Shown here in pieces: positions 20,969 through 30,221 of a DNA stretch of 64,000 nt (its first letter is position 1; the number at the start of each line of letters is the position of its first letter). This DNA comes from Deltaproteobacteria bacterium (GTDB taxonomy: Bacteria > Desulfobacterota > Desulfarculia > Adiutricales > Adiutricaceae). The notes beneath the pieces were generated by a model. It ran no database searches. It was not told the DNA's origin and saw only the letters and a list, made by a program, of their open reading frames with translations. The translations under genes and the position numbers were made by a program. The stretch lies in contig JAISFS010000116.1 of assembly GCA_031263485.1 (NCBI GenBank), positions 22,976 through 86,975 on the forward strand, written 5' to 3'.

Positions 20969-21982
20969 CTACTCCACCGTGTCGGGCACCCCCGGCAGGT
21001 CGGTGAACGCCGTGCGCTTAAGGGCCTCCACGTCCACCCGTTCGCCCAGGACGCCAATGTCCTTCAGCTCCCCTGCCGTGACTGCGAAGGCGTCCCTGGC
21101 CCCGGAAACGGAGGGGGTGTAGCGGAAGGTCCTGAGGACCGAAGCGTTGAACTCCGCCTCTCCGGCCACGTACTTGCCCTCCACCTGGATCCTGGCCGTC
21201 TCGTCGGGGTTCTTCTGGATCCAGGCCGCCGCCTTCTGCATCGCCCGCGTGTACCTGGCCGCCGCCTCGGGGTCGGAGGATGCCAGCCTGTCGGACACGA
21301 AGGAGGCGCAGCAGTACTGATCCGAGAAGGGCTTGTCCCTGGCGGAGTCCAGGAGGACAGTGAGGCCATCGTTCTTTGCCGCCAGCGACGCCACCGGGTC
21401 GTTGGCCGAGATGGCGTCAATCGCCCCGCGCTGGAGCGCAAGGGGAAGCTCCGCGTTGGTGAAGACCAGGAACTCCACCTCGGAGTCCTTGTCGCCCACC
21501 TTTACTCCGGCTGCGGCGAGCGCCCTTCTCGCGAACATGATTGGGCTGGAGTTGAGGCTGGGCACGCCGATCCTCTTGCCCTTCAGATCGGCCGCCGTCA
21601 CGATCCCGGAGTCCGGCTTCACCAGAACCTTGTCGCATCCGGTATGGAGCCCGGTCGTGATCTTGATGGGAAGCCCGTTGGAGAGCGGCTGGATGAGGGT
21701 GGCGAGGAGCCCGAAGCTCGCGTCTATCTGTCCCGCCGCGATGGCTTCGAAGTTCGCGCCCGGTTCGAGCTTGACGAGCTCGACTTCAAGGCCCTCGTCC
21801 CTGAAGAAGCCGCGCTCGTGGGCGATGTGGATGGGGCCTTCGCAGAGCCCGCCGGTATAGCCCGCCTTGATGCTGATGACCTTCGGGCCGTCCTCCTCCT
21901 GGGCCGCCAGGGGGGCAGAGGCCGCGGCTGGCAGAAGGGCGGCCAGGGCCGCAGCGAGCAGGGTCTGGTGCAGGATCTTCAT
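20969..21982 (-). CDS. NMT1/SsuA-like ABC transporter substrate-binding protein
   Basis: Signal peptide; SIKAGYTGGLCEGPIHIAHERGFFRDEGLEVELVKLEPGANFEAIAAGQIDASFG...LKGKRIGVPSLNSSP. Confidence 0.85.
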   Translation of the reverse strand: MKILHQTLLAAALAALLPAAASAPLAAQEEDGPKVISIKAGYTGGLCEGPIHIAHERGFFRDEGLEVELVKLEPGANFEAIAAGQIDASFGLLATLIQPLSNGLPIKITTGLHTGCDKVLVKPDSGIVTAADLKGKRIGVPSLNSSPIMFARRALAAAGVKVGDKDSEVEFLVFTNAELPLALQRGAIDAISANDPVASLAAKNDGLTVLLDSARDKPFSDQYCCASFVSDRLASSDPEAAARYTRAMQKAAAWIQKNPDETARIQVEGKYVAGEAEFNASVLRTFRYTPSVSGARDAFAVTAGELKDIGVLGERVDVEALKRTAFTDLPGVPDTVE

Positions 21983-22165
21983 GTTGTCCTCCCGTTATCC
22001 GTGCTTGGGATAACTTTTTGCGGTTAGGTGAAGCCGGTGCCCGCCGTCCGGACTGATGGGGGAGTCGTCGGTGCTTCGGGCAAGGTCGCGGTCGGGCTTG
22101 AGGCTCGGTCGCGGTCGCCATAATTTAGTGGCGGCGTCCGGGTTGGAGGCCAGGTAGCTTCCGGG

Positions 22166-22212
22166 TTGGATGTGCGGTCGCGTCAGGGTTGGATGTGCGG
22201 TCGCGTCAGGGT
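22166..22212. repeat. Approximately 24-bp tandem repeat (ggttggatgtgcggtcgcgtca)
   Basis: Two near-perfect adjacent copies plus a partial copy. Confidence 0.75.
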
Positions 22213-22392
22213 TGCCGGAATGAAGAGCTTCGGGTCTGAAGCCTCGGTGCGTAGAGGTTTCGGGATCGTGACGGCTGGCGATCCGGAGCAGCCGTGCAAG
22301 GGGTTCGGAAAGATGCGTCCGGGAAGCCTGCTCCAAGTTTCCTTTCGCCCTGTTCGGAGCCGCGGGAGCCCCAGGCGCCGCGGAAGGAGTTC

Positions 22393-22970
22393 GGGGCGAA
22401 GGCCCAGAATTTCATTTCGCCCGAGTCTCGGCATCGGCGGTGACGTTACTGAGACGACTGCCTGACGCATAGTGTCAGCCGGTCAGTCAGCCTGGGATAT
22501 GGCATCGCGCGGAACCGAACGCCTGGGCAAGGCGTCCGGGGCGACGGCCCTAAATTTCATTTCGGCCGGGTTTTGGCGTCGGCGGCGGCGTTCAGGAGAC
22601 GACGGCCCGACGTAAAGTGTCAGCATGTCCGTCGGCCTGAGGCATGGCATCGTGCGGGAGCTAACGCCTGGGCAAGGCGTCCGGGGCGACTGCCCTGAAT
22701 TTTGTTTCGGCCGGGTTTTGCCGTCTGCGGCGGCGTTCCGGCGACGGAGGCCAAACGGACTTTCCCGGTCCGTCGGGCGACGTGTGGCGTGTGGCGTGTG
22801 GCGTGTGGCCTCTGGATAACGTCCGGGACGCCGGCCCTGAGTTTCTTTTATGCTCGGGGTTCGCTCCTCCTCCGGCGGCGTGGGAGTCGGCTGATGCCGA
22901 CATGAAATTTCCTTCTCTCTCGGCCGCTGCGCCCGCGGCGGCGGCGGATGGTCTGACCGACGCGACGGGT
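22393..22970. repeat. Degenerate ~145-bp tandem repeat, about four units
   Basis: Anchors ggggcgaaggcccagaatttcatttcg (22393), ggggcgacggccctaaatttcatttcgg (22538), ggggcgactgccctgaattttgtttcgg (22683) and a diverged copy near 22825. Confidence 0.8.
22781..22810. repeat. 7-bp microsatellite (gtgtggc)n
   Basis: cgtgtggcgtgtggcgtgtggcgtgtggc read directly. Confidence 0.9.
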
Positions 22971-23241
22971 GGCGCCGGCATGCCAGTTTCTCGGGAGCAT
23001 CCGGGGGAACCGGTCCAACGGAACGCTCTGGGAACAGGTTCTTATGGATGGCCAGTTCGGGACGGCGGCCTGCCTCTGAGTCCTGGACGGAGGCGAGTGT
23101 GTCGGAAGTGTGGTCCGGACAGATCCGGGCGCGACGGGTGGGGCCTGACCAGCCTTCCGATGCGGAGCGGGAAAAGATTTTGGGTGCATTTGAGCTTTCG
23201 GGGTGGTAAAATCGCCCTCGCGGAAAAAGGAGGCCGCGCCG

Positions 23242-24291
23242 ATGGGCGCCAAGTACAGGGTAGAGCTGACCGATGATGAGCGGGACGAGCTTGTCCGCCT
23301 CACCGGCAGCGGCAAGTGCCTTACACGCGAGTTCGTGCATGCCAGGATCCTCCTACTGTGCGATTTCGCCGCCGGGGCTCCTGGATGGTTGGACGGCAGG
23401 GCCGCCGATGCGCTGGGCATTACCCCCGCGACGGTCCTAAAGGTGAAGAGGCGGTTCATCGAGAATGGGCTGGAGGCGGCCGTGGACCGCAAGACTCACG
23501 TGTTCGCCAAGTTCGGAGGGGGCTTCGAGAAGAAGCTCCTCGCGCTGGCAAGTTCCTCTCCCCCGAAGGGCAAGTCCAGGTGGACGCACCGCCTGCTCGC
23601 GAGGACGCTGGTCGAGCGGGGCGTGATAGACACCATCTCGCCCACGACCGTGGAGAAGATGCTGAAGGCGCGGGGCATAAGCTTCGCGGAACGGGGTGAG
23701 GGGAACCGCGATGACCAAGGGCGGTGGATAAGGGTCCGCAACCGGCGTATCAGGCGCGCATCTGACGGAAAGCCCTCCAGGGCTGCCGCCCGTGTCACGG
23801 GATCGGCGCGGAAGGCGGCGCCCAAGCGTGGCACCGCCGCATCCGGAACCGCGCCACGTAAGCTCCGCGCGAAGGCCGAGACCTCGCCCGCGCCCCGCAA
23901 GCGCGCTTCCAAAGCCGCATCGGCCGCCTCGCCTCGCAGGCTCGGCGCGAAGGCATCGGCGGCGCCCCGCAAGTCCCCGGTCTCTGCCGCGCCCCGCATG
24001 GGCGGCTCGGAGGCATCGCCCGCTTCCCGAAGGCCAGCCGCGAAGGCGTCGCAGAGCTCCGCTCCCCGAAGGCCAGCCGCGAAGGCGTCGCATGCGCCCG
24101 CTTCCCGAAGGCCAGCCGCAACGGCGTCGCAGGGCTCCGCTCCCCGAAGGCACGCCTCGAAGGCACCGGCGTCCGCTTCCCGAAGGCGCACAGCGAAGAC
24201 TGCACCGGCCTCCGCGCCCCGAAGGCACGCCGGGGAGTCCTCCCGCAGGGTAGCCCCCCGGAAGACCGCCGCCGTGTCCAGGAAGCGATAA
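23242..24291 (+). CDS. IS630-transposase-type HTH N-terminus joined to a long Lys/Arg/Ala/Pro-rich (histone-H1-like) tail
   Basis: SD aaaaaggagg then MGAKYRVELTDDERDELVRLTGSGKCLTREFVHARILLLCD...ADALGITPATVLKVKRRFIENGLEAAVDRK...SRWTHRLLARTLVERGVIDTISPTTVEKMLKARG (IS630 N-terminal pattern), then ~190 aa of ASRRPAAKASQ/APRRPAAKASH repeats. No DDE catalytic domain. Confidence 0.82.
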   Translation: MGAKYRVELTDDERDELVRLTGSGKCLTREFVHARILLLCDFAAGAPGWLDGRAADALGITPATVLKVKRRFIENGLEAAVDRKTHVFAKFGGGFEKKLLALASSSPPKGKSRWTHRLLARTLVERGVIDTISPTTVEKMLKARGISFAERGEGNRDDQGRWIRVRNRRIRRASDGKPSRAAARVTGSARKAAPKRGTAASGTAPRKLRAKAETSPAPRKRASKAASAASPRRLGAKASAAPRKSPVSAAPRMGGSEASPASRRPAAKASQSSAPRRPAAKASHAPASRRPAATASQGSAPRRHASKAPASASRRRTAKTAPASAPRRHAGESSRRVAPRKTAAVSRKR

Positions 24292-24373
24292 ATCTGGTGT
24301 GCGCCGCACCGTCCGTGCCGCCCGGGGGGTCCGGGCGGCCAATTATGCCCTGCGGGCTAAGGAGGCCTGATAA

Positions 24374-24880
24374 GTGGCCGAGAATCACGTTGTCACCCTG
24401 AAAGCTAAGGAGAGGGTCGAGCTTCGCCGCATGACGTCCATCGGCAAGACCCCGGCCCGGAACTACGTGCATGCCAGGATCCTCCTGCTGTGCGACAGCG
24501 GGTCCCAAGGGCCTGCCTGGCCTGACAAGAATGTCTGTGAGGCCCTCGGCATCACCCGCGGCACCGTCGGACGCGTCAAGACCCTGTTCGCCGAGGGCGG
24601 CCTCGATAGCGCCGTGGAACGTAAGCCCCACAAGCATGCCAAGTTCGCCGGGGACTTCGAGGCTTCCGTTCTGGAGACAGACCGCACCCCGCCGCCCAAT
24701 GGAAGGGCCCGGCGGAAGGCCGGCATCGCCATGCAGGCGTCCAAGTCCCGCCCGCGCAAGGCCGCGAAGCCGGCGACCGAGTCCAAGCCAGGCACGCCAA
24801 AGCCCAAGGCCGCGACCCGCAGGACCGCGAGGCCCGAGGCCAAGGCCGTTAAGCCCTCGCGCGTGGCGCGGGGGCGCTGA
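24374..24880 (+). CDS. Second, shorter IS630-HTH plus basic-tail protein
   Basis: GTG start after aggagg; AENHVVTLKAKERVELRRMTSIGKTPARNYVHARILLLCDSG...VCEALGITRGTVGRVKTLFAEGGLDSAVERKPHKHAKF, then KSRPRKAAKPATESKPGTPKPKAATRRTARPEAKAVKPSRVARGR. Confidence 0.8.
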   Translation: MAENHVVTLKAKERVELRRMTSIGKTPARNYVHARILLLCDSGSQGPAWPDKNVCEALGITRGTVGRVKTLFAEGGLDSAVERKPHKHAKFAGDFEASVLETDRTPPPNGRARRKAGIAMQASKSRPRKAAKPATESKPGTPKPKAATRRTARPEAKAVKPSRVARGR

Positions 24881-24932
24881 AGAATCTTCCCCGCCGCGCC
24901 TTCGCGCGAAGGCGTCCGCGGCCCGGGGCGTC

Positions 24933-26012
24933 TCAGATCTGGTAGGCGGGTTCCTCCAGTCTTCCCGCGAAGTTCAGATGCTCCAGGATCCTGCCGCGCA
25001 GCCCCAGGAAGTCAGGGGTATTCCTGGCCCTGGGCCTCGCGAAAGGCACTGCAATGGCCGTCTCGACCCGCCCCGGTCCCGCCGTCATGATCACGATGCG
25101 GTCCGAGAGGTAGATGGCCTCGTCCACGTCGTGGGTGACCATCACCATCGTGATGCGCTCCTCCTCGCGGATGCGCAGGATCTCGTCCTGCATGTTCATG
25201 CGGGTGAAGGCGTCCAGGGCACCCAGCGGCTCGTCCAAAAGAAGCACCAGGGGGCGGTTGATGAGGGCCCTCGCGAGCGCCGCCCTCTGCGCCATGCCGC
25301 CCGAGAGGTGGTGGGGGTAGACCTTGCCGAAGCGCTCCAGGCCCACAAGTCCCAGGTAACGGTCCACCAGCCGCTTTTCCGCAGCGTAGCGGCCGCGGGC
25401 CTTGAGCCCGAAGGCCACGTTGCCACGGATGTCCAGCCAGGGGAAGAGGAATGGGTTCTGGAAGACGAGCCCGCGTTCCGCGTCCGGGCCTTCGATTCGC
25501 CGCCCGTCCAGACGCAGGACGCCGGAACTCGCCTCGTCCAGGCCGGCCACGAGCCTCAGGAGGGTGGATTTCCCGCAGCCGGATGGGCCGATGAGGCTCA
25601 CGAACTCCCCCGGGGAAATCGAGAGGTTCACCGCCGATAGCGCCGGGACAAGGGAGCCGTCCGGGTGGGGGAAGCTCTTGGAGGCCTCGCGGATCTCTAT
25701 GGCGCCTCCCCGCCAGCCGGGGGAGTGACGTTCCGCGATAGACGCCGCTGTAGACGCCTCCGCGGCGGGCGCGGCGGATATTGCGGAATCGTCGCCGCCG
25801 ATAGCCGTTGCGGACTCACCCGCTCCGCCGGCGTTAGCGGATGCTCCGGAGCCGCATGTCGCGGGGGCGGGTACCGCGCCTCCGGCGGCATATGCGTCGC
25901 CGCCGCAGCCGAACGCCTCGGAGCGGACGCCGGCGGCGAACGTCAGCGGCGGATCGGCGGACGACGCGGCCCGCCCGTGTCGCCCTACCACTTGATCATG
26001 CCTTTCTGCCAT
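24933..26012 (-). CDS. ABC transporter ATPase (nitrate/sulfonate/taurine type) with Ala-rich N-terminal extension
   Basis: SLIGPSGCGKSTLLRLVAGL; HHLSGGMAQRAALARAL; LLLDEPLGALDAFTR; VTHDVDEAIYLSDRI. Start 26012 inferred; overlaps the permease end. Confidence 0.85.
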   Translation of the reverse strand: MAERHDQVVGRHGRAASSADPPLTFAAGVRSEAFGCGGDAYAAGGAVPAPATCGSGASANAGGAGESATAIGGDDSAISAAPAAEASTAASIAERHSPGWRGGAIEIREASKSFPHPDGSLVPALSAVNLSISPGEFVSLIGPSGCGKSTLLRLVAGLDEASSGVLRLDGRRIEGPDAERGLVFQNPFLFPWLDIRGNVAFGLKARGRYAAEKRLVDRYLGLVGLERFGKVYPHHLSGGMAQRAALARALINRPLVLLLDEPLGALDAFTRMNMQDEILRIREEERITMVMVTHDVDEAIYLSDRIVIMTAGPGRVETAIAVPFARPRARNTPDFLGLRGRILEHLNFAGRLEEPAYQI

Positions 26013-27397
26013 ACGAGCACCCGGTCCCGCGCCTTGAAAAACAGCGTGATGAGCGAGTAGAAGGTGAGGGCCACCACGATCAGCCCGGCATAGACGTTCG
26101 CGTAGGCGAGCATCTGCCTTTGCCAGTGGATGTACCACCCTATGCCGTTCTTGACGCCTATCATCTCCGCGGTCATGAGCGTCAGGAAGGACGCGCATGC
26201 CCCGCTGAAAAGACCCGTGAAAATGAGCGGCATGGCGGCAGGGATGCCCACCCTGAAGATCTGGTAGAGCCTCCCCGCGCCCAGGGTCCGGGACACCTCG
26301 AAATAGGAGTTCTGTACGTTGATTATCCCGCTGGAGGTCATGACCGAGGTGGGGAACCACACGGAAAGCGCGATAAGGAATACCGCCCCGGTCCAGGTGG
26401 TCGGGAAGGCCACGAGCACGATGGGGATCCATGCCGTGGGCGGTATCGGCCCCAGGAACTTGATGAGCGGGTTCAGCCAGTAGGCGCAGCCTCTGGAGAA
26501 GCCGATGAGGATCCCCGTGGCCAGCCCCGCGAGGGCCCCGGAGAAGAAGCCGGCCACGAGGAGCTTCGCCGACGAGCCCAGGCAGTCGACGATGAGGTAG
26601 CGGAAGTCCTCGGCCAGGACCGCGAGGATCCTGTCCGGGGTCGGGAAGAAGAGCGTGGGGAGCACGGTCGCCTTGGCCGTGAGAACGTCCAGGAGGGCCA
26701 GGAGCAGGAATGCCGCGGCTGTGAAGAGGTCCTTGGACCTCATGCGTTCAAGCGTCTCGGGCCTCCCCCTGAAGACCGCCGGCCGCGCGAGGAGGAACGC
26801 CGCGCAGAGCGCCAATGCATAGGCGCAGTACGGCCTCTCGGTAGCCGGGTGTCTGCCGCTGTCCGGCCAAAGAAGCTGGACGCCCAATGCAGTGAGGATA
26901 GCGGCGAGCGCCTTTTGCCTCCAGACGAAGGCGGCCAGTGACGCGACCGCCCGCGTTGCCGCTGATTTGCGCGGCGCCTGAGGCTGTATCCGCGTTTCGC
27001 GATCACAGTCTTCGCCTTCAGCGCAGGAAATCCCTGAAGCTTCGTCCGCTGTCATGGCGACGGAGGCGGCATCCGTTGTAAGCGCGACCGGAGTACCGTC
27101 GAGATAAGGTTCGAAGCGCGCGTCGTCCGCCAAAGACTCGACAGGCGCCGCGTCCGCGTCGACGGCGACAGGCGCTACGTCCGCGTCGACGGCGACGGTC
27201 TTCAGCGTCGCCGGGACCGTGTCGGCCTGCGCTGCTTCTTCGCTCGCCGATCGCGATGCCTGGGGACCTGCGGCGAGCGCGAAAGCTCCCGGCCGAGTTT
27301 CCCGGCCTCGGGCCGACGCGTGACGGGCATCGCGCGCCGGCGCGGCGGCGGGATCGGAGGCGAACGGGGCGGACGTGGCTGAAGTGGCGTCTTTCAT
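25985..27397 (-). CDS. ABC transporter permease (SsuC/TauC-like) with long low-complexity N-terminal extension
   Basis: TM segments and EAA-like region (FSGACASFLTLMTAEMIGVKNGIGWYIHWQRQ). N-terminal ~150 aa includes repeats VAVDADVAPVAVDADAAP. Confidence 0.82.
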   Translation of the reverse strand: MKDATSATSAPFASDPAAAPARDARHASARGRETRPGAFALAAGPQASRSASEEAAQADTVPATLKTVAVDADVAPVAVDADAAPVESLADDARFEPYLDGTPVALTTDAASVAMTADEASGISCAEGEDCDRETRIQPQAPRKSAATRAVASLAAFVWRQKALAAILTALGVQLLWPDSGRHPATERPYCAYALALCAAFLLARPAVFRGRPETLERMRSKDLFTAAAFLLLALLDVLTAKATVLPTLFFPTPDRILAVLAEDFRYLIVDCLGSSAKLLVAGFFSGALAGLATGILIGFSRGCAYWLNPLIKFLGPIPPTAWIPIVLVAFPTTWTGAVFLIALSVWFPTSVMTSSGIINVQNSYFEVSRTLGAGRLYQIFRVGIPAAMPLIFTGLFSGACASFLTLMTAEMIGVKNGIGWYIHWQRQMLAYANVYAGLIVVALTFYSLITLFFKARDRVLVWQKGMIKW

Positions 27398-27399
27398 CT

Positions 27400-28740
27400 T
27401 CACCTGCCCGCGATGCAAGCCGAGACGAGATCCTCGGTCAGGGCGATCCCGCCGCTGAAGCCCGTGTAGCCTCGGTCAAGTACGGCGCGGTTGGCGACGG
27501 GGTAGGATACGCTCAGGTGGCCGGCGCCCAGCTCGGCGGCGAGTGAACGATCCAGAGAACTCCCCAGGACGAAGGCGGGCCGCTTGGGGTCGCGGTATCC
27601 GTCCCCGTCCGCTTCGGGCCAGACGGCCCGGGCGGCCTCGCGGATGGCGTCCCGGTCTGAGGCGAAGACGAGGTTTTCCGGGGGCGGGGTGCCGGTGAGC
27701 TCCCAGTGCGTGCGCAGTACGGCCTTCTGGGACTCGTCCAGATCGTTCACGATCACCGTGAGCTCCGGGACCCAGCCCAGGTCCTCGCGGACGAAGGCCG
27801 CGAGCGCGGGGGCGTGATTGGCGTCCCCGATCACTGCCGCGTGGCGCTGGGACTCCATGTCGTTCAGGAGGTCTATCGCGGGTTCCAGCGCCGCGTAGTG
27901 GGCGCGCCCTGCGGCATCGCAGGCCCGGCGGATCCGCGATGGGGGTAGGCCGAAGGCGCGGCCCGCGATTTTCAGGAACCTCTCCGAGGCCGCGGCGCCG
28001 TAAGGAAGGGGCGCCTGGACCCACGGGATCCCGTGGAGGTTCCGGAAGGCCTCCGCGGCCTCGATCCCGTAGAGCCCGGAGACCACTATGTTAACGGCGG
28101 CCGCGCCAGCCCGGCCCACGTCTTTCTCGTCCGCCGCGGGCCCGAAGAGCACGTTCGCGCGGATGCCCAAAGCCGCCAGGAGCCTGCGCACGCCCTCCAG
28201 GTTGCCGCGCCAGAAAGGGTCCATGCCGGGGGGCACCCCCCAGACGTTGGCGAGATTCCTGCGCGTGCGCCTGCGCTTCACCGCCCTTTCGCACACCGCC
28301 TTGACGAGCTCCCCGTAGCCCCGGTACGAGTCCCCGGAAAATCCCGGCACGGAGGCGTGCAACACCGGGCGCTCAGGGGTGGAGAGCTCGTCCGCGAGCC
28401 CGCGGACATCGTCCCCTATAACCTCAGGGAGACAGCCTGTGAGGATTATGAACATCTCGCCGTCCATGATCCGTTCCGCCTCCCGGATCTCCTCGCGCAG
28501 GCGCTCGATGCCCCCGAAGACCACCTCGTTCTCCTGGAGGTTGGTGGACGGGACGCTCAGGGCCTGGCACTGGCCCGTCACCTGCAGGGCGGAGGCGCCG
28601 TTGGCGGTCCACGCGAAGTTGCCGGCGCAGCCGGGCCCGGCGTGCAGGACCGGCACGGCCCCGGGAATGCTCCCCGCGGCCCAGAGCGCGCCGCCCAAGG
28701 CGCAGCTCCACCGCGGCCTTTCGGCGAAGGGGGCCTTCAT
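27400..28740 (-). CDS. Nitrogenase component 1-like protein (NifK/BchB-like subunit)
   Basis: CALGGALWAAGSIPGAVPVLHAGPGCAGNF...LTGCLPEVIGDDVRGLADEL; ATGA overlap with the upstream partner. Confidence 0.82.
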   Translation of the reverse strand: MKAPFAERPRWSCALGGALWAAGSIPGAVPVLHAGPGCAGNFAWTANGASALQVTGQCQALSVPSTNLQENEVVFGGIERLREEIREAERIMDGEMFIILTGCLPEVIGDDVRGLADELSTPERPVLHASVPGFSGDSYRGYGELVKAVCERAVKRRRTRRNLANVWGVPPGMDPFWRGNLEGVRRLLAALGIRANVLFGPAADEKDVGRAGAAAVNIVVSGLYGIEAAEAFRNLHGIPWVQAPLPYGAAASERFLKIAGRAFGLPPSRIRRACDAAGRAHYAALEPAIDLLNDMESQRHAAVIGDANHAPALAAFVREDLGWVPELTVIVNDLDESQKAVLRTHWELTGTPPPENLVFASDRDAIREAARAVWPEADGDGYRDPKRPAFVLGSSLDRSLAAELGAGHLSVSYPVANRAVLDRGYTGFSGGIALTEDLVSACIAGR

Positions 28741-30221
28741 GACGACGCCTCCCCGCCGCGGATGCGGCTGAACGGCTCCTCGGCGTACCAGGACTCCCTG
28801 TAGGGGAGACGTCCGAACTTCCCGAGGCGCCTGTAGAAGCCGGGGTGCGTGAGCTTTCGGGCGAGCCTCCTGGCAAGATCGAAGGCCCCGCGGTACCCCA
28901 GATACCCGTAGCCCGCGTTGTAGATGACCTGGGACGGTATGCCCAGCCTCGCCGCGGTGGAATTCCCGTGCATGTGGCCCAGAAAGACGTCGGGCCTGAG
29001 GCGCCTTAGGAGATTGGCCTCTTCGAATGGCTGGACGTTGGCCACGTTGAAGACGAAGCCGCGGTCCCCCCCGGCCAGGGCGAGCTTCTCCAGCTCCACT
29101 TCGGCGAAGGAGTCGAAATGGAAGCTCCTGATCCCGCAGACCTCGAAGCCGAGTTCCTGCAGAAGGGATGCGGTCGCGAGCGAGCGGTATTCCCCCGCCG
29201 AGACGAAGGCGCGCTTGCCCGCGAACAGCGGCAGAAATCCGCTCAGGCCCTCCCAGAGCTTCCGTTTCTCTTGTATGGCCAGAGCCTCGGCTTCCGAGGC
29301 CGTCCCTGTCGCCTCGCCCAGATCCCTAAGCCACCTGGTAGTGTTCGCGATCCCGATGGGCATGTGCCGGATCACGTACGGCACCCCGTATTTCTCTTCG
29401 AGATGCGAGAGGAAATAGTCGTCGTGGGTGGGGCAAACAGAGACGGACAGCGAGGCCGAGGCCGCCCGCGCGAAGGCGTCCGGGTCCGCGAAGACCGGGA
29501 AGAAGTTCACCTTGAGCCCCAGCCCCTCGGCGAGACGCCTGAGCTCCCGCTCGTCCGCCACCCCCATGGACCCCACGTTCATGAGATTCACGGCCCGCGG
29601 ATCCTTCGGCGGCGCGTCCGCGGGGTCCGGCATCAGGTGGCGGCCCACCGCGTGGTAGACTACGTCGTAAGCGGTCGCCATGAACCGCGACTTGAAGCCC
29701 TCGCAATGCACGGGCAGGATCCTGGCCTTCACCTCGTCCTTGACCGCCGCGGCCGCGGCGTCGATGTCGTCCCCTATGACCCCCGGCAGGCAACCGGAGA
29801 CCGCGAGTATGACCTTGGGCGAGTACCTGCGGTCGGCTTCGATTATCGCCTCGCGGAGCTTCGCGTCCCCGCCGTTGATGACGTTCATCTCGTCCAGGGA
29901 CGTGGAGAGCCAAACGACGTCCTCCAGCGGCCTGCCGCGGGCGGCCAGGCCCCCGCGGACGTTGACGTTGTTTCCCGCGGCGCAGGTGCCGCATCCCACC
30001 GAACCGTGCAGGAGCACCACGGTCTCGGGCAGGCTGCACATGATGCCCAGCGCGGGCAGGAGCGGGCAGATGGATCCCTGCGTGAAGGTCCTGTCCGCCC
30101 GGCTCATTATGGGGCACTCGCCCCGGGCCGCCTTCCCGCCGAAGCGGGATCCGTGGGCCAGCGAGGTCTCGGGGTGGCGGTGCTCACGGACCGGGGGAAT
30201 CTTGGAGTCAAGGTAGCTCAT
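28737..30221 (-). CDS. Nitrogenase component 1-like protein (NifD-like subunit)
   Basis: CSLPETVVLLHGSVGCGTCAAGNN...AVSGCLPGVIGDDI...VSVCPTHDDYFLSHLEEKYGVPYVIRHMPIGIANTTRWLRDL. Confidence 0.82.
   Translation of the reverse strand: MSYLDSKIPPVREHRHPETSLAHGSRFGGKAARGECPIMSRADRTFTQGSICPLLPALGIMCSLPETVVLLHGSVGCGTCAAGNNVNVRGGLAARGRPLEDVVWLSTSLDEMNVINGGDAKLREAIIEADRRYSPKVILAVSGCLPGVIGDDIDAAAAAVKDEVKARILPVHCEGFKSRFMATAYDVVYHAVGRHLMPDPADAPPKDPRAVNLMNVGSMGVADERELRRLAEGLGLKVNFFPVFADPDAFARAASASLSVSVCPTHDDYFLSHLEEKYGVPYVIRHMPIGIANTTRWLRDLGEATGTASEAEALAIQEKRKLWEGLSGFLPLFAGKRAFVSAGEYRSLATASLLQELGFEVCGIRSFHFDSFAEVELEKLALAGGDRGFVFNVANVQPFEEANLLRRLRPDVFLGHMHGNSTAARLGIPSQVIYNAGYGYLGYRGAFDLARRLARKLTHPGFYRRLGKFGRLPYRESWYAEEPFSRIRGGEASS

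Follow-up and report, generated by a model that had tools for sequence, protein, structure and literature searches.

We consider it rather probable that two adjacent genes in the window (the whole 64,000-nucleotide stretch of DNA that was analysed), here called P1 and P2, are host genes made from the orfA half of an IS630 insertion sequence, which serve as local regulators and possibly have a wider role in the nucleoid. They descend from orfA and have a single origin at a fixed site, and, as the earlier note had supposed, they appear to have been domesticated rather than randomly truncated, a reading that is supported because tailed orthologues stand at the same site in related species, the ancestral site is empty in other relatives, the N-terminal domain has been under purifying selection, the leader is conserved and the DDE catalytic domain has been lost.

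The two proteins and their locus

The features of the locus are as follows, with the basis for each in brackets.

20969-21982, minus strand: SBP, an NMT1/SsuA-type ABC substrate-binding protein, divergent from P1 (profiles, synteny)
21983-23241, no strand: 1.26-kb divergent intergenic region between SBP and P1, holding a degenerate tandem repeat
22384-22746, no strand: degenerate 145-bp tandem repeat upstream of P1 (repeat search)
23204-23233, plus strand: P1 leader, with extended -10 TGGTAAAAT (23204-23212) and Shine-Dalgarno AAGGAGG (23227-23233) (sequence)
23242-24291, plus strand: P1, two-HTH protein derived from IS630 orfA with a long basic tail, 349 aa
23242-23742, plus strand: N-terminal bipartite HTH region of P1 (Pfam HTH_32, NCBIfam IS630, AlphaFold2)
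23743-24288, plus strand: tail of P1, rich in Arg, Lys, Ala, Pro and Ser, net +45 (composition)
24013-24228, plus strand: 39-bp minisatellite within the P1 tail (Tandem Repeats Finder)
24359-24365, plus strand: Shine-Dalgarno of P2, AAGGAGG (sequence)
24374-24880, plus strand: P2, tandem paralogue of P1 with the first HTH only and a basic tail, GTG start, 168 aa
24374-24712, plus strand: HTH region of P2, second HTH deleted (alignments A1/A2; Pfam HTH_29)
24719-24877, plus strand: basic tail of P2, net +14 (composition)
24933-26432, minus strand: ABC ATPase, convergent with P2, the open frame being longer than the real gene (profiles, synteny)
25985-27418, minus strand: ABC permease (profiles, synteny)
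27400-28740, minus strand: nitrogenase-like component 1, K type (profiles, synteny)
28737-30221, minus strand: nitrogenase-like component 1, D/E type (profiles, synteny)

P1 matches the NCBIfam profile transpos_IS630 (NF033545) over residues 34-150 (E=1.4e-11) and Pfam HTH_32 in its N-terminus (E=1.5e-7), whilst P2 matches the same NCBIfam profile over residues 34-113 (E=4e-6) and Pfam HTH_29 (E=1.3e-6); the Pfam matches of the pair fall in HTH_32, HTH_29 and HTH_23, and most of the profile scores lie below the curated cut-offs, as is expected with half of the protein missing. The earlier note had given both proteins an IS630-type N-terminal HTH region, which holds in full for P1, where both HTH units of orfA are kept (to about residue 150), and in part for P2, which has the first unit and has had the second deleted. 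AlphaFold2 models the N-terminus of P1 as two clusters with eight helices in all (mean pLDDT 75); the best fold matches of this model are TnsB and the paired domains of PAX-6 and PAX-5, none of them significant, and a PDB sequence search gave nothing useful. Behind the HTH region stands a tail of about 182 aa in P1 (net charge +45, K+R 27%, D+E 2-3%) and of about 53 aa in P2 (net charge +14), and the growth of the P1 tail is partly that of the 39-bp minisatellite. The strong Shine-Dalgarno sequence that had been noticed on each gene is AAGGAGG in both cases.

The tandem pair is present only in this genome, and the duplication that gave P1 and P2 may have come either before or after the split of the species. 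Because the pair is confined to this genome, the earlier argument that two paralogues speak against random truncation is weak, and it is orthology that carries the case for domestication.

The neighbouring operon of NifD-like, NifK-like, permease, ATPase and SBP genes (20969-30221 of the window) is conserved throughout the family, and a scan of adjacent frames brought up neither a NifH nor a radical-SAM partner. As a lead only, the operon resembles the nfl/isr (isethionate-reductase) sulfonate locus of Rhodobacter capsulatus, in which a nitrogenase-like enzyme is paired with Ssu-type transporters (PMC11423573). A search of Rfam gave no match.

Loss of the catalytic half

In the same bacterial family autonomous IS630 copies measure about 1.2 kb and have ends CTAGTACCTTGTAACA, and they encode an orfA of about 175 aa followed by the DDE domain in another frame, with an overlap of 30 nt. 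This change of frame can be read as a -1 frameshift, with a separate orfA product made before DDE, which makes an orfA-only DNA-binding protein a natural starting point; the two-ORF frameshift layout suggests why this element yields stand-alone DNA-binding proteins. One IS630 copy, L043 (1942-3081, minus strand), has orfA and DDE fused in a single frame of 380 aa, the middle of which has diverged.

A DDE profile built from the autonomous copies of the family found nothing convincing in the six frames of 21900-25000, nor anything beside the orthologues of P1 and P2; its positive controls gave 1e-18 to 1e-72, and it detects intact and broken DDE elsewhere. The claim that a Lys/Arg/Ala/Pro tail has replaced DDE in both proteins is therefore upheld, and a DDE domain in another frame of the tail region, which had been considered as a case against it, is absent from every frame with the controls working. 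Terminal repeats of IS630, as defined from the autonomous copies, were not found in the window even when as many as 3 mismatches were allowed. The HTH region of P1 and P2 is homologous to that of the two-ORF, -1 frameshift IS630 transposase and falls in the same tree as autonomous orfA, and the promoter and Shine-Dalgarno leader of P1 is similar to that of orfA; P1 and P2 differ from IS630 in having no DDE, no terminal inverted repeats, a single fixed site and a basic tail.

Orthologues and a probable single insertion

The orthologue search covered 60 related genomes, where G000 denotes this genome and G002 to G005 belong to the same genus; all genomes are MAGs, those of the genus being 74-86% complete. 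Frames with an HTH and a basic tail were found in G005 (L034, a complete frame of 271 aa) and G004 (L035, truncated where the contig ends), which are also the only two genomes found by an alignment-based scan of contigs; a contig scan with full-length P1 gave no match, probably because several of the query patterns fell in the tail. Orthologues without tails had been raised in the earlier note as evidence against its reading, and both of these orthologues have tails.

The tailed gene of G000 and G005 stands on the opposite strand (antisense) between the ATPase and SBP genes, and in G004 it adjoins the SBP gene at the end of a contig that holds one flank only. The site is empty in G002, G003 and seven outgroup genomes, in which ATPase and SBP are adjacent (about 45-410 bp). 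A five-gene tree places G000, G004 and G005 together (100/100) with G002 and G003 as their sister group, and in a tree of 51 family copies, several of them with an intact DDE, the tailed proteins group as one clade (99/98). Because both the carriers and their proteins are monophyletic, the simplest history suggested by the sequences would be a single ancient insertion in the stem lineage that the three species share. Among the species searched the tailed gene is restricted to these three of one genus, and across 297 surveyed genomes of the phylum the frames found outside this genome were only of orfA length (144-187 aa), none of them long-tailed. Relatives of P1 and P2 were found neither in viral contigs nor in PHROGs, and there is therefore no sign of a phage origin.

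It might be thought that P1 and P2 restrain related IS630 elements by binding to the element ends and preventing transposition, thereby acting as a brake on the transposon and not as regulators of the host. The orfA product of autonomous elements is made alone before the frame change, and G004 and G005 have no other close IS630 orfA copy, with G000 having only remnants or distant copies, all of which would fit such a role; however, a correlation would need more than the six genomes of the genus, and in G003 both the tailed gene and IS630 orfA matches are lacking. Furthermore no terminal-repeat match was found in the window, and the tailed clade is far diverged from the autonomous copies (stem branch 0.53), and we regard the explanation as unlikely.

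The basic tails

All four proteins have a basic tail of Ala, Arg, Lys, Pro and Ser, that of the orthologues carrying a net charge of +17 to +20, and the tails align poorly between species with only their composition conserved. Alternative frames of the GC-rich sequence are basic too, many of them at +9 to +32 per 100 aa, so that an Arg-rich basic composition is weak evidence; the sole distinctive feature is lysine, which makes up 7-15% of the tails read in frame against 0-4% of other frames. What remains is a low-complexity basic tail, Arg-rich and unalignable between species, that is partly explained by GC content. Tails of the ARKPAARKTA/KKPAAKK type are also found in the same genome on unrelated proteins (L155, L156, L157, L159 and L160, sampled with an HC2 profile), the bearers being an acidic protein, a small protein and two whose sequences were named by eye as pyruvate phosphate dikinase and TSCPD-type. 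These weaken the chromatin reading, and on this analysis a chromatin role for P1 and P2 is not established.

A general nucleoid-associated protein of the histone-H1-like kind, which compacts DNA everywhere and uses its HTH merely as an anchor, would account for the long cationic tails (net +45 in P1 and +17 to +20 in the orthologues) and would have precedents in AlgP and PhaF, whose KPAA tails bind DNA (PMC9239181). In these proteins a disordered cationic C-terminal tail of KPAA type follows a folded N-terminal domain, an arrangement to which the basic low-complexity tails of P1 and P2 may correspond, and by way of analogy only, the tail of AlgP can bind DNA and matters in vivo (PMC9239181); in P1 and P2 the N-terminal domain is instead an IS630 HTH, and the tail is Arg-rich with no regular KPAA. 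We think such a general role improbable, since with similar tails on unrelated proteins the tail alone is no sign of a chromatin role, its composition is partly the product of GC-rich DNA, and among the species searched only three, all of one genus, have the protein.

Leader and intergenic region

The layout of the P1 leader is that of the autonomous IS630 orfA leader, and its counterpart in G005 and G004 reads TGTTACAAT...AAGGAGG. Upstream, the three species have TGnTAnAAT, GCGGA and AAGGAGGCCGCG in common amid poorly alignable sequence. In G005 and G004 the promoter motif TGTTACAA occurs a single time in each contig stretch. Being identical to the inner portion of the terminal repeat of IS630, it was considered as a retained operator; this was rejected, as the motif coincides with the extended -10 in an orientation opposite to that of the left end of the IS, and P1 has TGGTAAAA at that position. 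No operator shared across the carriers was found. The intergenic sequence between SBP and P1 (21983-23241) is unique in the genome, and repeats of unrelated sequence are present in the matching regions of G005 and G004 too; the idea that these repeats are binding arrays was dropped, as they are unique in the genome and not common to the three species.

Selection on the N-terminal domain

The N-terminal domain is about 44% identical between orthologues, against 89-92% in the flanking SBP. The NG86 ratio between orthologues is 0.5-0.67; synonymous sites are strongly GC-biased, and pairwise fits of the GY94 F3x4 codon model, which allows for codon bias, give an omega of 0.10-0.12 (2dlnL 50-63 against omega = 1). 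The dN/dS of the HTH, which the earlier note had proposed as a check, thus points to purifying selection with omega about 0.11, and as the site is a single orthologous one this selection acted after immobilisation. The constraint is modest and far below that on SBP, the omega of which (0.007-0.035) is exceeded several-fold by that of the HTH protein. The frames are open in three lineages across a synonymous divergence of 0.5-0.9, and in simulations that took account of stops alone at least one of three neutral copies was broken in 93-99.9% (p about 0.001-0.07). A decaying IS630 remnant under little constraint, which has not yet acquired a stop codon, would be in keeping with the fast divergence, the NG86 ratio and the greater ease with which GC-rich DNA keeps frames intact by chance, but is very unlikely given that the codon-bias-aware model strongly rejects omega = 1, that the frames have stayed open in all three lineages over such divergence, that the leader and Shine-Dalgarno are conserved and that no trace of DDE or terminal repeats lies alongside.

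Proposed path from insertion sequence to regulator

The history that we favour would have begun when a two-ORF IS630 element inserted once, between the ATPase and SBP genes, in the ancestor of the three species. Its terminal repeats and DDE half would have been lost, and the orfA frame, kept with its IS-like promoter and leader, would have acquired a basic, disordered tail; the orfA-derived gene would then have been duplicated in this genome, and the P2 copy would have lost the second HTH. We infer that the proteins are expressed and bind DNA, with the bipartite paired-type HTH of P1 binding particular DNA sites and the cationic tail adding non-specific DNA affinity or bridging, and that HTH and tail would act as a local transcriptional regulator, the targets of which would be its own gene and perhaps the divergent SBP gene; a wider nucleoid role is possible beside this local one. 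Such a regulatory role is plausible, although the fixed position also follows from plain vertical descent and is no proof that neighbours are regulated.

Domestication of the DNA-binding domains of transposases is well known in eukaryotes (pogo/CENP-B, PAX), and the TldR proteins, which are TnpB-derived RNA-guided transcription factors, are a case of a transposon protein without catalysis that was taken up as a bacterial regulator. TldR resembles what is proposed for P1 and P2 in being a catalysis-less transposon protein that serves as a host regulator, and differs in that it comes from another transposon protein and is RNA-guided and not an HTH protein. The PAX paired domain, which is derived from a Tc1-like transposase (PMC4901127), works alike in that the bipartite HTH of an ITm-group transposase has been kept without the catalytic domain, PAX-6 and PAX-5 also being among the best, though non-significant, fold matches of P1; P1 and P2 differ in being bacterial and of independent origin, with a tail instead of a homeodomain. 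Ner/Nlp and the Xre antitoxins are mobile-element DNA-binding proteins that have been recruited as host regulators (reviewed in PMC8987985), and unlike P1 and P2 they have no basic tail; IS630 is not mentioned in that review of prokaryotic mobile-element transcription factors. In the open-access literature eukaryotic domestications of ITm transposases were found, and such domestication of bacterial DDE insertion sequences is scarcely described there; subscription literature was outside the scope, so priority is not claimed. The empty site, the single origin, the lost catalysis and terminal repeats and the selection are all visible in the sequences, and this opens the proposed route from IS element to host regulator to testing.

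Further orfA genes without DDE in the family

Many IS630 orfA copies of the family are without DDE. One clade of such genes, at gpmI (iPGM)-nadA, is found in ten genomes of several genera (L117, L118, L119, L142, L143, L144, L151, L152, L153 and L053), mostly between the two genes, and purifying selection was found in the four members tested. A second clade lies upstream of nuoE/nuoF-like genes and is represented once in each of five genomes that belong to a single genus (L128, L130, L131, L132 and L133). Omega is well below 1 in both clades; however, autonomous orfA shows similar values, so that synteny is the stronger evidence for both.

Exaptation of the IS630 orfA domain therefore looks, from these sequences, to be recurrent in this bacterial family. 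We would tentatively suggest that the family has at least three times made the IS630 paired-type orfA into host regulators at fixed sites (the nitrogenase-like/ABC operon, gpmI-nadA and nuoE/F-like), with one lineage tailed and partly histone-like. If this is true, the repeated conversion of orfA would parallel, in prokaryotes, the way in which PAX and CENP-B arose from transposases.

Short basic C-termini are also seen on related orfA proteins without DDE, namely L121 (3652-4287, minus strand; KRGRKPKRTS) and, in this genome, L029 (3531-4094, plus strand; PRRRKKKPVR).
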